Source: Bacteroidota bacterium
GTDB lineage: Bacteria > Bacteroidota > Bacteroidia > Bacteroidales > F082
Assembly: GCA_018830105.1 (NCBI GenBank)
Contig: JAHJTC010000004.1
Span: forward strand, 558,001 to 622,000
Reading direction: 5' to 3'
Length of the DNA: 64,000 nt
Shown: one piece after another, positions 2,716 through 38,317 of the stretch
How positions within the stretch are numbered: position 1 is the first letter of the stretch
How the letters are laid out: each line of letters opens with the position of its first letter
The notes under the pieces: generated by a model
Databases searched by the model: none
The model's input: the letters and a program-made list of their open reading frames with translations, nothing else
What the model was told of the DNA's origin: nothing
Program-made: the position numbers and the translations under genes

Positions 2716-2901
2716 TTAAATTTGAACATTCTGTAAAGTGTCCAGTACACCAAATACCTTCAGCAGCCATATCACGAGAATGATGATAACCACTGCATTC
2801 AGAATACTTTTTACTGTTCGGTGCATGGGAATAAAGCTGTTGATCAGCCAAAGTATCACTCCAACACCAATAATGACGATAAGGATTGTTAAAATGGGCA
2901 T
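2716..2901 (-). CDS. Small two-helix membrane protein, Thivi_2564 family
   Basis: 61 residues with two hydrophobic helices (about 2-22 and 33-52) separated by NSFIPMHRTVKS. The opening MPILTILIVI, the LWLINSFIPM turn and the VIWLLKVFGVL ending fit the Thivi_2564 family of tiny inner-membrane proteins, whose function is not established. Despite its size the gene is convincing: family match, ATG start at 2901 and its own promoter element 44 bp upstream. It is one of four genes in the window preceded by the paired TTACA promoter element, which suggests stress or envelope induction. That regulatory link is inference. Confidence 0.8.
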   Translation of the reverse strand: MPILTILIVIIGVGVILWLINSFIPMHRTVKSILNAVVIIILVIWLLKVFGVLDTLQNVQI

Positions 2902-2944
2902 AATGGTAAATTTTGATTTACTTTAAATTATTGATTTAATCCAA

Positions 2945-3000
2945 CAAAGGTCAGGATCAATCGCTTAAAAAATATTACACAATTCTGCGTAAGAGTTACA
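2945..3000 (-). promoter_or_regulatory. Paired-TTACA promoter element of the Thivi_2564-type gene
   Basis: On the plus strand, half-sites TTACACAATT at 2975 and TTACATGTTT at 2996 start exactly 21 bp apart. A 22-bp spacer then leads to CAAAGGTC at 2945-2952, which reads GACCTTTG on the minus strand and resembles the Bacteroidota -7 box TAnnTTTG. The start codon follows 43 bp later. The same spacing recurs at 6589-6644, 12579-12634 and 38086-38141. Confidence 0.65.
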
Positions 3001-3028
3001 TGTTTCACACATTTTGGGAATTTCGACA

Positions 3029-6222: not shown

Positions 6223-6558
6223 TTAAACCAAAAGAATAAGCAGGATGATAATAAGTATCAGCGTAGCGCCACCAATGTAAATGGTTCCTCCGCCTTTCTT
6301 CACCTCTTTTTTCATTTCCTTTAGTTCATTCTTCAATTCAATTTTTTCTTCAGCCGTTAAATCGCTTTTATCCATTTCACGGATTTCATCAACGCGTTTT
6401 GTAATTCTGTCAATCTCTGCATCGGTTAATTTGGTTTCCGTTTTTACGGGAACAGCATTTTTTTCCGCTTCAGACTTTGAATCCAGTTTACTTGCAAATG
6501 CCATTGATGAGCTCAAGGTGAAAATCAATGCGACAATAAAAAAAATACTTCTTTTCAT
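6223..6558 (-). CDS. Small secreted coiled-coil protein with C-terminal membrane helix
   Basis: 111 residues. A signal peptide (MKRSIFFIVALIFTLSSSMAFA) is followed by a strongly charged helical segment, about 25-88, rich in Lys/Glu (TKRVDEIREMDKSDLT, ELKNELKEMKKEVKKGGG). A single hydrophobic helix (IYIGGATLILIIILLILLV) ends the protein at the C-terminus. Similar small proteins are common in Bacteroidota but have no assigned function as far as I know. The gene has its own paired-TTACA promoter and a strong terminator, so it is a monocistronic unit. Its coregulation with the other three genes carrying that element is the best clue to its role. Confidence 0.75.
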   Translation of the reverse strand: MKRSIFFIVALIFTLSSSMAFASKLDSKSEAEKNAVPVKTETKLTDAEIDRITKRVDEIREMDKSDLTAEEKIELKNELKEMKKEVKKGGGTIYIGGATLILIIILLILLV

Positions 6559-6588
6559 TTTATGATTCTTTTAAATTATTTAATGGAA

Positions 6589-6644
6589 TAAAGGTATAGC
6601 TTGATGACACTCCAGATGTTACACAATTTTGAATAATACTTACA
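6589..6644 (-). promoter_or_regulatory. Paired-TTACA promoter element of the small coiled-coil protein gene
   Basis: Half-sites TTACACAATT at 6619 and TTACATTAAT at 6640 are 21 bp apart. A 22-bp spacer separates them from TAAAGGTA at 6589-6596, which reads TACCTTTA on the minus strand. The start codon lies 30 bp further on. The untranslated leader contains the AAATAATTTAAA string seen in related form in the other three leaders. Confidence 0.65.
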
Positions 6645-6885
6645 TTAATCACATATTTTTGGTTGTCGGTTTTTTTGATTATTGTTAGCTGTTTTATCCC
6701 CCATACCTTTGTCATTAAAGGCTTTCAGTCCGATCGAGAATCAAGTAGTGATGAAAAACCAAGCACCAAACCAAAGCTTTTCTGATTTTTTCAGCAATCA
6801 AACAAACCTATATTTCAATTCTCAACGGGAAAAAGCCCAAAGTTTTTGGAGGTTTGGGGGCTACGGGAAAATATAAACCCAAAAA

Positions 6886-9091: not shown

Positions 9092-12000
9092 TTATGGTGC
9101 AACTACAGTACTTGCATTCAAGGTAACAGCGGTCTGTGCCAATAATCTGCCGGTAACAGTTGCTCCTGTATTGAGTGAAATAAGTGTAGCACTTAAAATA
9201 TTTCCAAATAATTCGGTTTCTGTGCCAAGAACTGCCTGACCAGTTACTACCCAGGTAATATTGCTGGCTTGTGCGCCTCCTTGTAATATAACTTGTGAGC
9301 TAGCCATTAATGCAAGATCTTGAGCAATCTGGAAAACCCATGTATCGTTTTCATTACCTGATAAAGTTACGGTGGCGTCGGAATCTAATAATACTCCGGT
9401 ACTCCATTTATATAATCCGGGAGCTAATGTGAGTCCGCTGATATTTCCGGCACCCATATCTATAATCGGCGCAGGGACTACCAGACCATTGGCTGTAGTG
9501 AAAGCAGTTTCCATATCGGAAACAGCTGCTGTTAACATAGCCGGGGTTGGTGGGGCATAATCTGCAGCATAAACATTTCCTGTTACAAGTGTTGGAATTG
9601 TAGTATGCGATGAGGCGCCATCGGTATTCATTATTAATGCGAATCCGGTTATAGCTGTTGATGTTGCAGGACTTACGCCGATATTGCCTTCAATAGCAGT
9701 AACTCCAGTTGTTGAAATTCCTGATTTAGTTAAGATGGAGAAAAAGCCGGCACCTCCTAAATCAATTTGTCCAGGCCCAATCGGGTCATTTTCTTCAAAG
9801 TTGGCTACCAATACCCGATCGCCTGTTATAATAAAGGTGTATTCCAGATTACTTGATAAAATATTGGTTCCCTCCGACCAGTTCAGGAAAGTGTAACCGA
9901 CATTTGCAATAGCAGAAACGGTTACTGATGCACCTTCATCGTAAGTTCCTGCACCATTTGTATTTCCGCCTTCAGCAGGATTGCTCGATAATTCAACATT
10001 ATATTGCATAGAGCCATCTTCTGTAAAGTTAGCTACCAATATCCGGTTATCAGTAATTGTAAAGGTGTATGCTGCATTCGTAGAAACGATATTGGCTCCT
10101 TCTGTCCAGTTAAGGAAGATGTATCCGATATTTGCATTGGCCGAAATGGTTACTGATTCTCCTGAATCATAGGTGCCTGCTCCGCTTGTTGTTCCGCCTT
10201 CAGCAGGATTGCTTGACAATTCAACGTTATATTGCACGGAGCCATCTTCTGTAAAGTTAGCTACCAATATCCGGTTATCAGTTATTGTAAAGGTGTATGC
10301 TGCATTCGTTGAAACAATGTTGGTTCCTTCTGTCCAGTTCAGGAAGGTGTATCCGGTATTGGTATTGGCAGATACGGTTACTGATTCTCCTGAATCATAG
10401 GTGCCTGCTCCGCTTGTTGTTCCGCCTTCAGCAGGATTGCTTGACAATTCAACGTTATATTGCACGGAGCCATCTTCTGTAAAGTTAGCTACCAATATCC
10501 GGTTATCTGTAATTGTAAAGGTGTATGCTGCATTCGTCGAAACAATGTTGGTTCCTTCTGTCCAGTTCAGGAAGGTGTATCCGGTATTGGCATTGGCAGA
10601 AACGGTTACTGATTCTCCTGAATCATAGATGCCTGCTCCGCTTGTTGTTCCGCCTTCAGCAGGATTGCTCGACAAATCAACAATATACTGCACAGGGCTA
10701 TTATCTATAAAATTGGCTACGAGTTCACGATTTTCGGTTATTGTAAAAGTGAAAATCGCATTTTGAGAAACAATGTTTGCGCCCTCGGTCCAGTTCAAGA
10801 AAGTATATCCTGGATTTACATTGGCTAAAATAGTCACCGATGCTCCTGAATCAAAGATTCCTGCTCCACTTGTTGTTCCGCCCTCAGCAGGATTGCTTGA
10901 CAAACCAACACTAAACTGCTCGATGACAATTTCTGTAAAATTCGCCACCAATGTCCGGTTTTCAGTTATTGTAAAACTGTACGCTGCATTTGCAGAAACA
11001 ACATTTGTTCCTTCAGTCCAGTTCAGAAATTCGTATCCTACATTTGCTTGGGCTAATACCGTTACTGATGCATTCAATTCAAAGGCACCACCTCCTAATG
11101 TGGCTCCGCCTTCAGCCGGATTACTGGACAAACTTACAATATACTGTGCTGCCACATTTTCTGTAAAGTTGGCTACTAATACCCGATTATCGGTTATCGT
11201 AAAGGTATACTGTGCATTCTGGGAAACAACATTTGTTCCTTCAGTCCAGTTTAAAAATTGGTATCCAACATTTGCACCGGCCGAAACGGTTACTGATGTT
11301 CCTGAATTAAAAGTACCTTCTCCGATTGTGTTACCGCCTATAATCGGATTGCTGGACAAACCAACCGTATACTGTGTAGTGACAATTTTTGTGAAGTTGG
11401 CTACTAATGTCCGGTTTTCAGTTATCATAAAGGTGTAATTGGCATTCTGAGAAACAACGATATCTCCTTCGGTCCAGTTCGAAAATTCGTATTCTGCATT
11501 TGCACTGGCAGAAATGTTAACCAACGCATTTAAATCAAAGATGCCTCCTCCAATTGTATTTCCACCTTCGGTAGGGCTGCTGGACAAATCAACGGTAAAT
11601 TGCAAGACGCCATTTTCTGTAAAGTTGGCTACGAGTTCGCGATTTCCTGTAATCGTAAAGTTATAATTAGCATCCTGAGAAACCACATTTGTTCCTTCAG
11701 TCCAGTTCAAGAATGTGTAACCTGCGCTTGCAATGGCCGATACAGTAACTGATGCATTCAAATTATAAATACCTCCTCCGGTTGTCATTCCTCCTTCAAC
11801 AGGATTAGATGATAAGGTCACAACATGTTGTAAGGTGAAGTTAGCTACCAAATCTCTGTTCCCGTCCATAGTAAAGTGATAATCAGGATTGGTTGAAACC
11901 ACAACTCCGTCCTGAGTCCAGTTAACAAACGAATAACCAAAATTGGGGGTAGCAACTACATTTATTAAAGAATCTTGAATAAATGTGCCTGCCCCACTGG

Positions 12001-12550
12001 TTGTTCCACCTTCCTCTGGAATTGAGGATAGCGTTATCTCTGCATTGGTTGTGAATGACCAATGATAATCTTCCATTAAGCCCTGGCCGATTTGGTCAGT
12101 GGCTTTTGTCGTAACAGTAGCTAAATAAAGCACATCCGGCAAAAGTGGAACCGAGGGCGAAAAGCTTGCCGTTAATCCATTATAGGTAACAGCCCCGGTT
12201 ATTAATGTACTGGCTTGTTGAAGGCCAGAAGATTCCTGCGTGTTTGACTTAGCTTCCTTATTACCTTTACTACGTACAGCAATTCCGTTATTTGGAACTG
12301 GTACGGCTTTAGATGCTTCGCCTTGTAAAACGATAAATGATTCCTGATTGATCGTTGCAGAATCCATTTCCATATTAAATGTTGCTGATATAATCTGATC
12401 AAGAGGCACATCAATAGCATTGTCAACAGGGATTGTTGAAATCACTAGCGGGCATAAGAATTCCTTGGGTTCAAATTCGTCCTTTTTGCAACCGTTAAAA
12501 AAGACAACTATTGCCAAAGCAATAATTGGTAAAAGTAGTAACTTTTTCAT
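9092..12550 (-). CDS. Giant lipoprotein: SbsA Ig-like domain, ten InlB-B-type repeats, C-terminal DUF3494 ice-binding domain
   Basis: 1152 residues. I start at the ATG at 12550 (MKKLLLLPIIALAI) because the -7 box at 12579-12586 lies inside the longer frame that opens at 12616. The lipobox VFFNGC gives a lipid anchor. Residues about 25-175 match a Big_5/SbsA Ig-like domain (VISTIPVDNAIDVPLDQIIS). Ten repeats of about 76 residues follow, each with LSSNPAEGGTTSGAG, FLNWTEG and LVANF, typical of the divergent InlB B-repeat. The last 230 residues (from GQIDLGGAGFFSILTKSG) have the DUF3494 hallmarks: GNIGVSPA, GNVYAADY, LAPGLYKW, TWVFQIAQDL and LGTETELFGNIL. DUF3494 proteins bind ice or act as surface adhesins. 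The repeats probably act as a stalk holding the domain away from the cell. Confidence 0.88.
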   Translation of the reverse strand: MKKLLLLPIIALAIVVFFNGCKKDEFEPKEFLCPLVISTIPVDNAIDVPLDQIISATFNMEMDSATINQESFIVLQGEASKAVPVPNNGIAVRSKGNKEAKSNTQESSGLQQASTLITGAVTYNGLTASFSPSVPLLPDVLYLATVTTKATDQIGQGLMEDYHWSFTTNAEITLSSIPEEGGTTSGAGTFIQDSLINVVATPNFGYSFVNWTQDGVVVSTNPDYHFTMDGNRDLVANFTLQHVVTLSSNPVEGGMTTGGGIYNLNASVTVSAIASAGYTFLNWTEGTNVVSQDANYNFTITGNRELVANFTENGVLQFTVDLSSSPTEGGNTIGGGIFDLNALVNISASANAEYEFSNWTEGDIVVSQNANYTFMITENRTLVANFTKIVTTQYTVGLSSNPIIGGNTIGEGTFNSGTSVTVSAGANVGYQFLNWTEGTNVVSQNAQYTFTITDNRVLVANFTENVAAQYIVSLSSNPAEGGATLGGGAFELNASVTVLAQANVGYEFLNWTEGTNVVSANAAYSFTITENRTLVANFTEIVIEQFSVGLSSNPAEGGTTSGAGIFDSGASVTILANVNPGYTFLNWTEGANIVSQNAIFTFTITENRELVANFIDNSPVQYIVDLSSNPAEGGTTSGAGIYDSGESVTVSANANTGYTFLNWTEGTNIVSTNAAYTFTITDNRILVANFTEDGSVQYNVELSSNPAEGGTTSGAGTYDSGESVTVSANTNTGYTFLNWTEGTNIVSTNAAYTFTITDNRILVANFTEDGSVQYNVELSSNPAEGGTTSGAGTYDSGESVTISANANIGYIFLNWTEGANIVSTNAAYTFTITDNRILVANFTEDGSMQYNVELSSNPAEGGNTNGAGTYDEGASVTVSAIANVGYTFLNWSEGTNILSSNLEYTFIITGDRVLVANFEENDPIGPGQIDLGGAGFFSILTKSGISTTGVTAIEGNIGVSPATSTAITGFALIMNTDGASSHTTIPTLVTGNVYAADYAPPTPAMLTAAVSDMETAFTTANGLVVPAPIIDMGAGNISGLTLAPGLYKWSTGVLLDSDATVTLSGNENDTWVFQIAQDLALMASSQVILQGGAQASNITWVVTGQAVLGTETELFGNILSATLISLNTGATVTGRLLAQTAVTLNASTVVAP
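9960..10680 (-). repeat. Near-identical 228-bp tandem repeats inside the ice-binding lipoprotein gene
   Basis: Repeats 7, 8 and 9 of the InlB-B array are almost identical at the DNA level and recur with a 228-bp period; for example GCCTGCTCCGCTTGTTGTTC recurs at about 10177 and 10405, with a near copy at 10632. Outer repeats (1-5) have diverged. This pattern shows recent unit duplication in the centre of the array and predicts length variation between strains. Confidence 0.85.
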
Positions 12551-12578
12551 TTTGTGATATTTATAATTATTTATGGAG

Positions 12579-12634
12579 CAAAGGTAGAGCCGGAGGTATC
12601 CATATATATTATACAATTATGAATATAAGTTACA
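12579..12634 (-). promoter_or_regulatory. Paired-TTACA promoter element of the ice-binding lipoprotein gene
   Basis: Half-sites TTATACAATT at 12609 and TTACATAGTT at 12630 are 21 bp apart. A 22-bp spacer leads to CAAAGGTA at 12579-12586, which reads TACCTTTG on the minus strand and is an exact TAnnTTTG -7 box. Transcription should begin near 12572, which fixes the translation start at 12550. Confidence 0.7.
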
Positions 12635-12639
12635 TAGTT

Positions 12640-13077
12640 CACACATTGCTGTTTGTGACATTTTGGTTTTCAGGGCTCAAAATTCAAGGGTATAAGAATC
12701 AACTGAAATCACACAGGTGTTGACAAGACTAACTTATCACATCATTACTCCACTCACAGAATCGTTTTTGGGTTTCGGCTTTGCGACTTTTACGCGGGCA
12801 AGATGTCGGAGTAGTTTAAAGGGACAGCAAAATAAACGACCCCGGAATTTCCCAAACCGTTAGGCTAACAGCAAAATACTTTTTTATTATAAGCTCTACA
12901 GAGGAAAGGACATCGAATGGTTTTAAGGTTGTTTTTTAGTGTGACCGTTGGTAAAAGCAAAATCTGCCAATTCAATTTGTAATAAATGGCTTTGGCTATT
13001 TGGGTTATTAAAGAAAAAAACGAGCTTAAAGCTGTGACCCTAATTTTTTATTGATTGACTAAATTTTTAAAGCCAAG
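12640..13077. other. Intergenic region without a recognisable gene
   Basis: About 440 bp between the promoter of the ice-binding gene and the stop of the PorT-like gene. I see no credible coding frame, RNA gene or long repeat. A near-palindrome GTTAGGCTAAC occurs at 12859-12869, but nothing supports a specific role. Confidence 0.6.
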
Positions 13078-21297: not shown

Positions 21298-22035
21298 ATG
21301 AGAGCACTAATTATTGATGATGAAAAAAGCTGCAGGCAAACCTTAAAAAGTCTGTTGCATGACAATTTCCCTGAGATTATAATTGCTGGGGAGGCTTCTT
21401 CGTTATCGGAAGCCAGGAAAGCTATCGCTGATTTTCACCCCGACTTAGTGTTTTTGGATATACAGCTCACTGACGGTTCTGGATTTGAGCTTCTCGAAAC
21501 AATCCCCTCATATGAATTCCATGTAATCTTTGTGACAGCGTTTGACCAATTTGCAATACAGGCTATCCGCCATAGTGCCATCGACTATATCATGAAACCT
21601 GTTGATAATGAAGAGTTTGTTAGAGCGGTAAATAAATCGAAGCAAATGAACTTGAATATTGATTTGTTGACACGACAGGTTAAAGTTTTACTGAAAAATA
21701 AAGACAATTTTCATCGTATTGCCTTACCAACACTCGATGGCTTACGATTTATTGACCTTGATGAAGTCTTATATTGCAAATCTGAAAGTAATTATACATG
21801 GTTTCATTTGCAAAACGGAGAGAAAATCATGGTTACACGCACTTTGAAAGAATATGATGAAACCTTATCAGAAAACAGGTTTATAAGAATCCACCAGAGC
21901 TATCTTATTAATATCCGGTACGTAGATCGCTATTTAAAAGGCAAATCTGCTTATGTTGTCATGAGTAACGGACAGGAGATAAATGTGTCGCGCCGAAAAA
22001 AAGAATTGTTCCTTAAAAAAATGGAACAACGATAA
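21298..22035 (+). CDS. LytTR-family response regulator
   Basis: 245 residues from the ATG at 21298; a TTG two codons earlier is also in frame but less likely. The receiver domain (1-120) has the acidic pair IIDDE, phospho-acceptor Asp at about 54 in LVFLDIQLTDG, the conserved TAFD and the Lys in IMKPVDN. The LytTR DNA-binding domain occupies about 145-245 (FIDLDEVLYCKSESNYTWFH, RTLKEYDETL, FIRIHQSYLINIRYV). LytTR proteins bind direct repeats about 21 bp apart. That is the spacing of the four TTACA promoter elements in this window, so this protein and the one at 22223 are candidates for binding them. That link is inference. Confidence 0.92.
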   Translation: MRALIIDDEKSCRQTLKSLLHDNFPEIIIAGEASSLSEARKAIADFHPDLVFLDIQLTDGSGFELLETIPSYEFHVIFVTAFDQFAIQAIRHSAIDYIMKPVDNEEFVRAVNKSKQMNLNIDLLTRQVKVLLKNKDNFHRIALPTLDGLRFIDLDEVLYCKSESNYTWFHLQNGEKIMVTRTLKEYDETLSENRFIRIHQSYLINIRYVDRYLKGKSAYVVMSNGQEINVSRRKKELFLKKMEQR

Positions 22036-37530: not shown

Positions 37531-38040
37531 TTAATGTTTATAATTTTCGTGATGTGATTTTTCTTTAGGGTTCATCATTTTTCCGCCGGGATTCATCCTG
37601 CCTTTTTCTTTCATTTTCTGCGTGCACATGTTCATCATTTCAGGATGCTCTGTCATCATATTTACCATTTGATTGCGCATTGCAGTATCTTTTTCACACA
37701 TTTGCATCATTTTACCCATCATTTTTTGCATCATTTCAGGATTGTCTTTCATCATACCCATCATTTGATGTTCATCATTCATGTCCGCCATGCTAGCTTT
37801 TTTCGCCTCCATTTCAATCCTTTGGTGGTTCTCTGCATTGCTCATCATCATTGCGCTATGGTCATATTCTTTAGCCACTTTCATAAATTCCATCATCAGC
37901 TGATGGTTGCTTGCAATGGTCTTAAAAATTTCTGTACGTGTCTCCTGCTTATCAAGTAAGCCTTTTACAGCTGTGCTTTGGCCGTTTACGTTAAAAACCA
38001 AAACTGTAAGCATTGAAATTAAAATTGTTATTGTCTTCAT
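37531..38040 (-). CDS. Met/His-rich secreted protein
   Basis: 169 residues. A signal peptide (ISMLTVLVFNVNGQ) precedes a helical mature part (20-169) with extreme Met content: EMMQKMMGKMMQMCEK, HQMMGMMKDN, NMMTEHPEMMNMCTQKMKEK. A His-containing tail follows (KEKSHHENYKH). Methionine clusters of this kind bind Cu+ in periplasmic copper chaperones and CusF-like proteins, so a copper-binding function is likely though unproven. It begins the gene run DUF302, SHOCT, permease, Cu-ATPase and carries its own paired-TTACA promoter, which gives the run an entry point separate from the Cus genes. Confidence 0.8.
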   Translation of the reverse strand: MKTITILISMLTVLVFNVNGQSTAVKGLLDKQETRTEIFKTIASNHQLMMEFMKVAKEYDHSAMMMSNAENHQRIEMEAKKASMADMNDEHQMMGMMKDNPEMMQKMMGKMMQMCEKDTAMRNQMVNMMTEHPEMMNMCTQKMKEKGRMNPGGKMMNPKEKSHHENYKH

Positions 38041-38085
38041 GGTATTAATTTTAAGTGATTAAATTATTTAATTAGATATAAACCT

Positions 38086-38141
38086 TAAAAGTAACGGATG
38101 TTATTCGTTGCCATGTTACATCTTTTAATGAATCATTTACA
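38086..38141 (-). promoter_or_regulatory. Paired-TTACA promoter element of the Met-rich gene and copper-ATPase operon
   Basis: Half-sites TTACATCTTT at 38116 and TTACATAATT at 38137 are 21 bp apart, then 22 bp to TAAAAGTA at 38086-38093, which reads TACTTTTA on the minus strand. The start codon follows 45 bp later. The leader contains AATTAAATAATTTAA, close to the leader of the 6558 gene. This is the only copy upstream of a metal-resistance gene. Confidence 0.65.
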
Positions 38142-38317
38142 TAATTCATAGATTGTTAATTGATTTATGTTTTTGTTCTTTCATCTGTTTATCTCTGTTT
38201 TATATATGCTTTTATTAATCTGATACTATTTCCTATAAAGGTTTAACAAATCATTTGCTTAACGATGATAATTTAATGATTATCACAATTTATAGTTTGA
38301 TGAATATAGCACAAATT

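Follow-up and report, generated by a model that had tools for sequence, protein, structure and literature searches.

A conserved promoter element with a 21-bp repeat, mainly upstream of envelope and stress genes in Bacteroidota, as a probable AraC-family operator

Activators of the AraC family often bind head to tail and touch RNA polymerase from a site beside the -35 element. The half-sites araI1 and araI2 are 21 bp apart, and LytTR proteins also use direct repeats with a period of about 21 bp. At araI2, AraC recruits RNA polymerase (PMC4760080), and AggR acts from a site fixed 21-23 bp upstream of the -10 element, with 22 bp being optimal (PMC6392122). The element described here was found in a 64,000-nucleotide stretch (the window) of the genome of a Bacteroidota bacterium. 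Like araI1/araI2 of E. coli araBAD, it consists of two co-oriented half-sites, the proximal of which adjoins the -35 region at a fixed distance; here, however, the half-site sequence is another one, there is no sugar-binding domain, the promoter is of the Bacteroidota TAnnTTTG type and the regulon spans multiple operons. The optimal 22-bp gap of AggR-type AraC/XylS activators recurs as 22 bp to the -7 box, but AggR acts from one site, whereas two half-sites are conserved here, and no virulence link was seen. Given the fixed gap of AggR and the recruitment from araI2, the geometry of the element agrees with that of AraC-family activators. LytTR regulators of the AgrA, YpdB and BtsR type are alike in repeat period, but differ in half-site, and their genes do not follow the distribution of the sites. 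No published description of this regulon was found in the open-access literature searched, an open-licence scope that is not proof of novelty; nor did open-access papers yield anything relevant on CsbD/YtxH with AraC or Bacteroidetes, or on AraC with copper and the HMA domain.

The element in the window and across the genome

The preliminary description had placed four copies of the element at 2945-3000, 6589-6644, 12579-12634 and 38086-38141, and all four are confirmed there, each on the minus strand and each reading TGTAA-N16-TGTAA-N22-TAnnTTT with 0-1 mismatches. Site 1 (2940-3014) scores 54.5 bits with R1 and 49.1 bits with a matrix built without the window sites (see below). Its upstream box TGTGAA lies at 3009-3004, the distal half-site ATGTAA at 3001-2996, the proximal half-site GTGTAA at 2980-2975 and the -7 box, TGACCTTTG, within 2953-2945, with a predicted start near 2940. 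The target (2716-2901, minus strand; 5'UTR 39 bp) encodes a 61-aa membrane protein of the Thivi_2564 family (NCBIfam NF041949, E 1.8e-20) and is followed by a gene for a 271-aa, lipoprotein-like product (1833-2648).

The other three sites have the same layout and are also on the minus strand. Site 2 (6584-6658; 50.4 bits, 43.0 with the window-excluding matrix) has its distal half at 6645-6640, its proximal half at 6624-6619 and its -7 box at 6596-6589. It precedes, with a 5'UTR of 26 bp, a minus-strand gene (6223-6558) for a 111-aa protein that is predicted to be exported and carries a hydrophobic segment near its C terminus; a domain search gave it no confident family. Site 3 (12574-12648, -7 box 12586-12579; 53.4 and 46.9 bits) precedes a minus-strand gene (9092-12550, 5'UTR 24 bp) for a 1152-aa surface lipoprotein-like protein with Big_5, InlB-type and Ice_binding domains (Pfam PF18998, PF11999, PF13205); its ten InlB-type repeats are near-identical, with a period of about 228 bp. 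Site 4 (38081-38155, -7 box 38093-38086; 39.7 and 27.3 bits) is clearly the weakest of the four and precedes a minus-strand gene (37531-38040, 5'UTR 41 bp) for a 169-aa exported Met/His-rich protein, again without a confident family in the domain search. Because its score is weak and it is located within a copper-resistance region, site 4 may answer to a different regulator. The gene behind it lies inside a large minus-strand metal-efflux region (31148-52146) that encodes CusA/CusB-like, TolC-like, heavy-metal ATPase-like and HYC-type small proteins, all named by eye from their translations.

The consensus of 15 sites reads AAATgTGTGAAtnATGTAAcTnTTTccanAAaTTRTGTAAca, followed by about 20 unconserved bases and then TKACCTTTG. 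Conservation among these sites extends to columns that the search pattern left unspecified, namely the upstream AAATgTGTGAA, the AA at offsets 16-17 and the T at 19. A third conserved element, TGTGAA, is present 9 bp upstream of the distal half-site; the proximal half-site is without a clear upstream box. Neither the TGTGAA element nor the numerous sites outside the window had been seen in the preliminary description. Of 38 anchored pairs of half-sites, 36 keep the 21-bp period. Among 126 cases, the -7 box has the expected spacing in 106 and is nearer by 1 bp in 18. This box is the TAnnTTTG of the Bacteroidota sigma-A promoter (columns 49 and 52-55 of the site matrix). As TAnnTTTG occupies -12 to -5 in Flavobacterium (PMC9723704), the half-sites would fall near -60 to -56 and -39 to -35, with the conserved block extending to about -74. 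Two other operator types were considered and dropped: a CRP/FNR palindrome, since the consensus holds no palindrome, and OmpR-type tandem repeats of 10-11 bp, since the consensus has no extra TGTAAC at half the period.

For an unbiased test, a 75-bp matrix was built from 11 sites outside the window and used to scan the window. It recovered just the four sites, the next best match scoring 3.2 bits, and the best scores of 20 shuffled windows did not exceed 8.1 bits. A profile of all 15 first-found sites was applied to the 3.9-Mb genome, with 28 bits or more counted as a strong match; it gave 17 strong matches, followed by a gap down to 17 bits. At least 13 sites therefore exist beyond the four in the window, and many relatives also carry the motif. 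All 17 strong sites are in the correct orientation and 9-43 bp before an ATG, as measured from the predicted start. A search with the simple pattern at two mismatches was too permissive (55 matches versus 37 in a reversed control), and the full-length sequence model was used in its place. The motif is real, conserved and functional-looking. In a same-genus comparison of promoters, illustrative in that the pairs were picked by motif score, the blocks were conserved and the spacer had diverged.

Genes behind the sites

The targets of the 17 sites are mostly envelope or stress genes (CsbD, DUF3185 and the CheB portion of the CheB-CheR-PAS protein were recognized by eye). Among the first genes behind the sites are mlaE, with mlaF and mlaD next in line; tamB, immediately downstream of which a TamA-like Omp85 protein is encoded; three genes for OmpA-domain proteins; and genes for YtxH, CsbD, a B12-binding radical SAM protein (with an M48 protease after it) and lipoproteins, one of them with an lmo0937 peptide gene after it. 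Also found were the Thivi_2564 peptide, a small DUF3185-like membrane protein, an AI-2E-family transporter and a small peptide gene that precedes a gene for a CheB-CheR-PAS protein. The window itself contributes the ice-binding-like InlB-repeat protein, the 111-aa exported protein and the 169-aa Met/His-rich exported protein. Targets that recur in other genomes, mostly recognized by eye, are CsbD, YtxH, lmo0937, MlaE, ice-binding-like, UspA-like and CheR proteins. The four window genes, which the preliminary description held to be unrelated, are not wholly so: the regulon consists mostly of envelope or stress genes, and the copper-resistance region contains site 4.

Judged by gene content, the regulon looks like an envelope and general stress response. 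Its lipid-transport (Mla, TamB), outer-membrane protein and M48 protease genes are comparable to targets of sigma-E and Cpx in Proteobacteria, but neither an alternative sigma factor nor an OmpR-type regulator is implicated here, and homology is not claimed. The CheB-CheR-PAS protein is encoded at G000:C31:532859-536129 (L031/L032) in an operon behind a regulon site, and CheR targets were also seen in G184 and G154. At about 1-1711 of the window, and running into L033 786-3935, is the gene for a hybrid histidine kinase of very large size, which has multiple PAS domains and a receiver domain. It sits between regulon genes, has no site of its own and is a possible candidate for the sensor of the response.

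A candidate AraC-family regulator and its rivals

Outside the window, the same genome encodes an AraC/HTH_18 protein of about 186 aa (G000:C5:82311-82847), with one site at the stop codon of its gene and another about 400 bp further on. Its place in the AraC/XylS family is clear from HTH_18 (73.5 bits, curated cut-off 33.6) and HTH_AraC (55.3 bits, curated cut-off 26.6). In an AlphaFold model (pLDDT 89.7), helices 92-185 form two helix-turn-helix units with a MarA/AraC-like fold, and Foldseek matched the model to the DNA-binding domains of MarA, SoxS, YesN and AraC. Twelve such AraC/HTH_18 proteins, of 172-194 aa, are encoded within motif clusters in the majority of the motif-rich genomes that were sampled first. 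Across 60 relatives, the AraC score and the score of the best site were correlated with a Spearman rho of 0.71, a value that is partly biased, as some of these genomes had supplied the AraC alignment, and that ignores kinship. When the supplying genomes were left out, AraC was present in 4 of 6 site-rich genomes versus 1 of 47 others (p = 2.5e-4, kinship ignored). Among 177 genomes of the class that were drawn independently, a strong AraC was found in 17 of 32 site-bearing genomes versus 20 of 145 others (p = 6e-6, kinship again ignored), and for 12 of 20 AraC genes in this draw a site lay no more than 170 bp away, ahead of the gene's own start or at its stop codon. Sites before the start of the AraC gene itself are likely to reflect autoregulation. 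A set of 80 loci around AraC relatives, drawn from Bacteroidales, Flavobacteriia, Cytophagia, Balneolaceae and a Melioribacteraceae genome, held 121 sites by the matrix and none in shuffled sequence. The araC stop codon falls, in many genomes, within the operator of the gene that follows, the NL-stop end reading AACCTGTGA (for example L144 10552, L150 10552 and L035 8317); with the stop codon within the upstream box, coding constraint adds to conservation at AraC-adjacent sites.

We consider it probable that an AraC-family activator uses the element as its operator. The preliminary description had instead put forward the two LytTR proteins encoded at 21298 and 22223, LytTR-type direct repeats about 21 bp apart being known, and a LytTR response regulator, from this pair or another copy, could in principle bind the repeat. 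The best homologue scores of the two LytTR proteins scarcely follow the sites over the 60 relatives (rho 0.37 and 0.12, as against 0.71 for AraC), and on this ground they were rejected as the regulator. LytTR relatives occur in nearly all genomes, with or without sites, and no LytTR gene adjoins a site in the clusters inspected. The overlap of the window's LytTR proteins with site-rich genomes is not significant. As the preliminary description itself had stated, the half-site fits the published LytTR consensus poorly: TGTAAC departs from it at invariant positions whichever way it is read (a comparison made by eye). Binding by a LytTR protein is thus very improbable, and the AraC gene fits better than the LytTR pair by adjacency, co-occurrence and known promoter geometry. 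What was proposed earlier as one promoter architecture serving one regulon, with an activator beside RNA polymerase, is supported.

A more open alternative is that another regulator binds the sites, with AraC a frequent neighbor or one of several proteins sharing the operator. Sites before typical targets occur in several genomes in which no AraC of the family was recognizable (G040, G058, G177, G213, G150, G184, G121 and G065), and CheB/CheR-PAS sensor genes recur among the targets, so that another signaling path may feed in. Against this, sites are found again and again directly before or after AraC genes in unrelated genomes, and the operator changes along with the AraC branch (see below). 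We regard a different binder as unlikely; missing contigs, a diverged regulator or its replacement are possible explanations for the AraC-less genomes. In these genomes the sites were seen before CsbD, UspA-like, CheR and ice-binding-like genes (L257-L263 for G177, G213, G150 and G184; L228-L232 for G040 and G058). Conversely, at the strict cut-off numerous AraC-bearing genomes gave no site, which is partly due to the training of the model on a single genome and to the strict filters used in scoring. The fixed distance to the -7 box might also be expected of an extended promoter, recognized by a sigma factor or by upstream polymerase contacts and in need of no separate regulator, but the block reaches to about -74, has an internal 21-bp repeat, is confined to some 17 promoters in each genome and follows a single regulator gene, and we give this reading hardly any credence. 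The probability of a chance likeness among AT-rich promoters, which the 55 versus 37 matches of the two-mismatch search would favor, is virtually nil: it is already refuted by the scores of the four sites (27-49 bits versus at most 8.1 in shuffled windows) and by the 121 matches versus 0 in related loci.

A metal-associated sister branch and the proposed response

The N-terminal domain of the modeled regulator has the ferredoxin-like beta-alpha-beta-beta-alpha-beta order of CopZ and HMA copper-binding domains. CopZ (2qif) matches it with a TM-score of 0.66 by target length, at a weak Foldseek E of only 0.12, and the domain does not reach the Pfam HMA threshold; even in the metal branch, sequence similarity to that family is no more than marginal (E 0.31). 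It also differs from CopZ and HMA in lacking the CxxC pair: in the branch associated with stress genes the motif is YMVSxRC, with an invariant Ser at the position of the first Cys. A sister branch of the same build keeps CxxC (NMVCxRC), and its neighbors are HMA-type P-type ATPases and other probable metal-resistance genes. Genes of this branch often have an operator after them that shares the 21-bp repeat and the proximal half, the upstream box being in many cases CCAAAAAT rather than TGTGAA. From these neighborhoods, the CxxC branch appears to control metal-export genes via a very similar operator. That regulator and site vary together between the branches is as expected if AraC is the binder. 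With the first Cys of CxxC lost, the stress-branch regulator probably senses something other than Cu(I). A second, different AraC of the same build, at G000:C19:112011-112520 (L237 7999), has MLCDCC in place of CxxC or MVSxRC.

On the AraC reading, two monomers of the 186-aa protein would bind head to tail at the half-sites 21 bp apart. The distal monomer would contact TGTGAA with its first helix-turn-helix and ATGTAAC with its second, and the proximal monomer, placed just upstream of or over the -33 region, would recruit RNA polymerase, carrying the main Bacteroidota sigma factor, to the TAnnTTTG promoter. The promoters controlled in this way would number at least 17 and belong mostly to genes for envelope maintenance and general stress; the head of the regulator is a copper-chaperone-like ferredoxin fold without the first cysteine of the usual CxxC. 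A broader proposal, which in our judgment could as readily be wrong as right, is that duplication of a copper-sensing AraC gave rise to a regulator that has lost the metal ligand, answers to a new signal through nearly the same operator, and now runs a widespread envelope-stress response in Bacteroidota that includes Mla, TamB, outer-membrane, small-membrane-protein and CheB/CheR-PAS genes.

If the AraC reading is correct, the regulator, its operator and the target list could be tested in cultured relatives such as Chryseobacterium and Dyadobacter. The poorly understood CsbD, YtxH, lmo0937, Thivi_2564 and ice-binding-like surface proteins would gain a single regulatory context, and the family would provide a natural example of a metal sensor repurposed with its DNA site almost unchanged.
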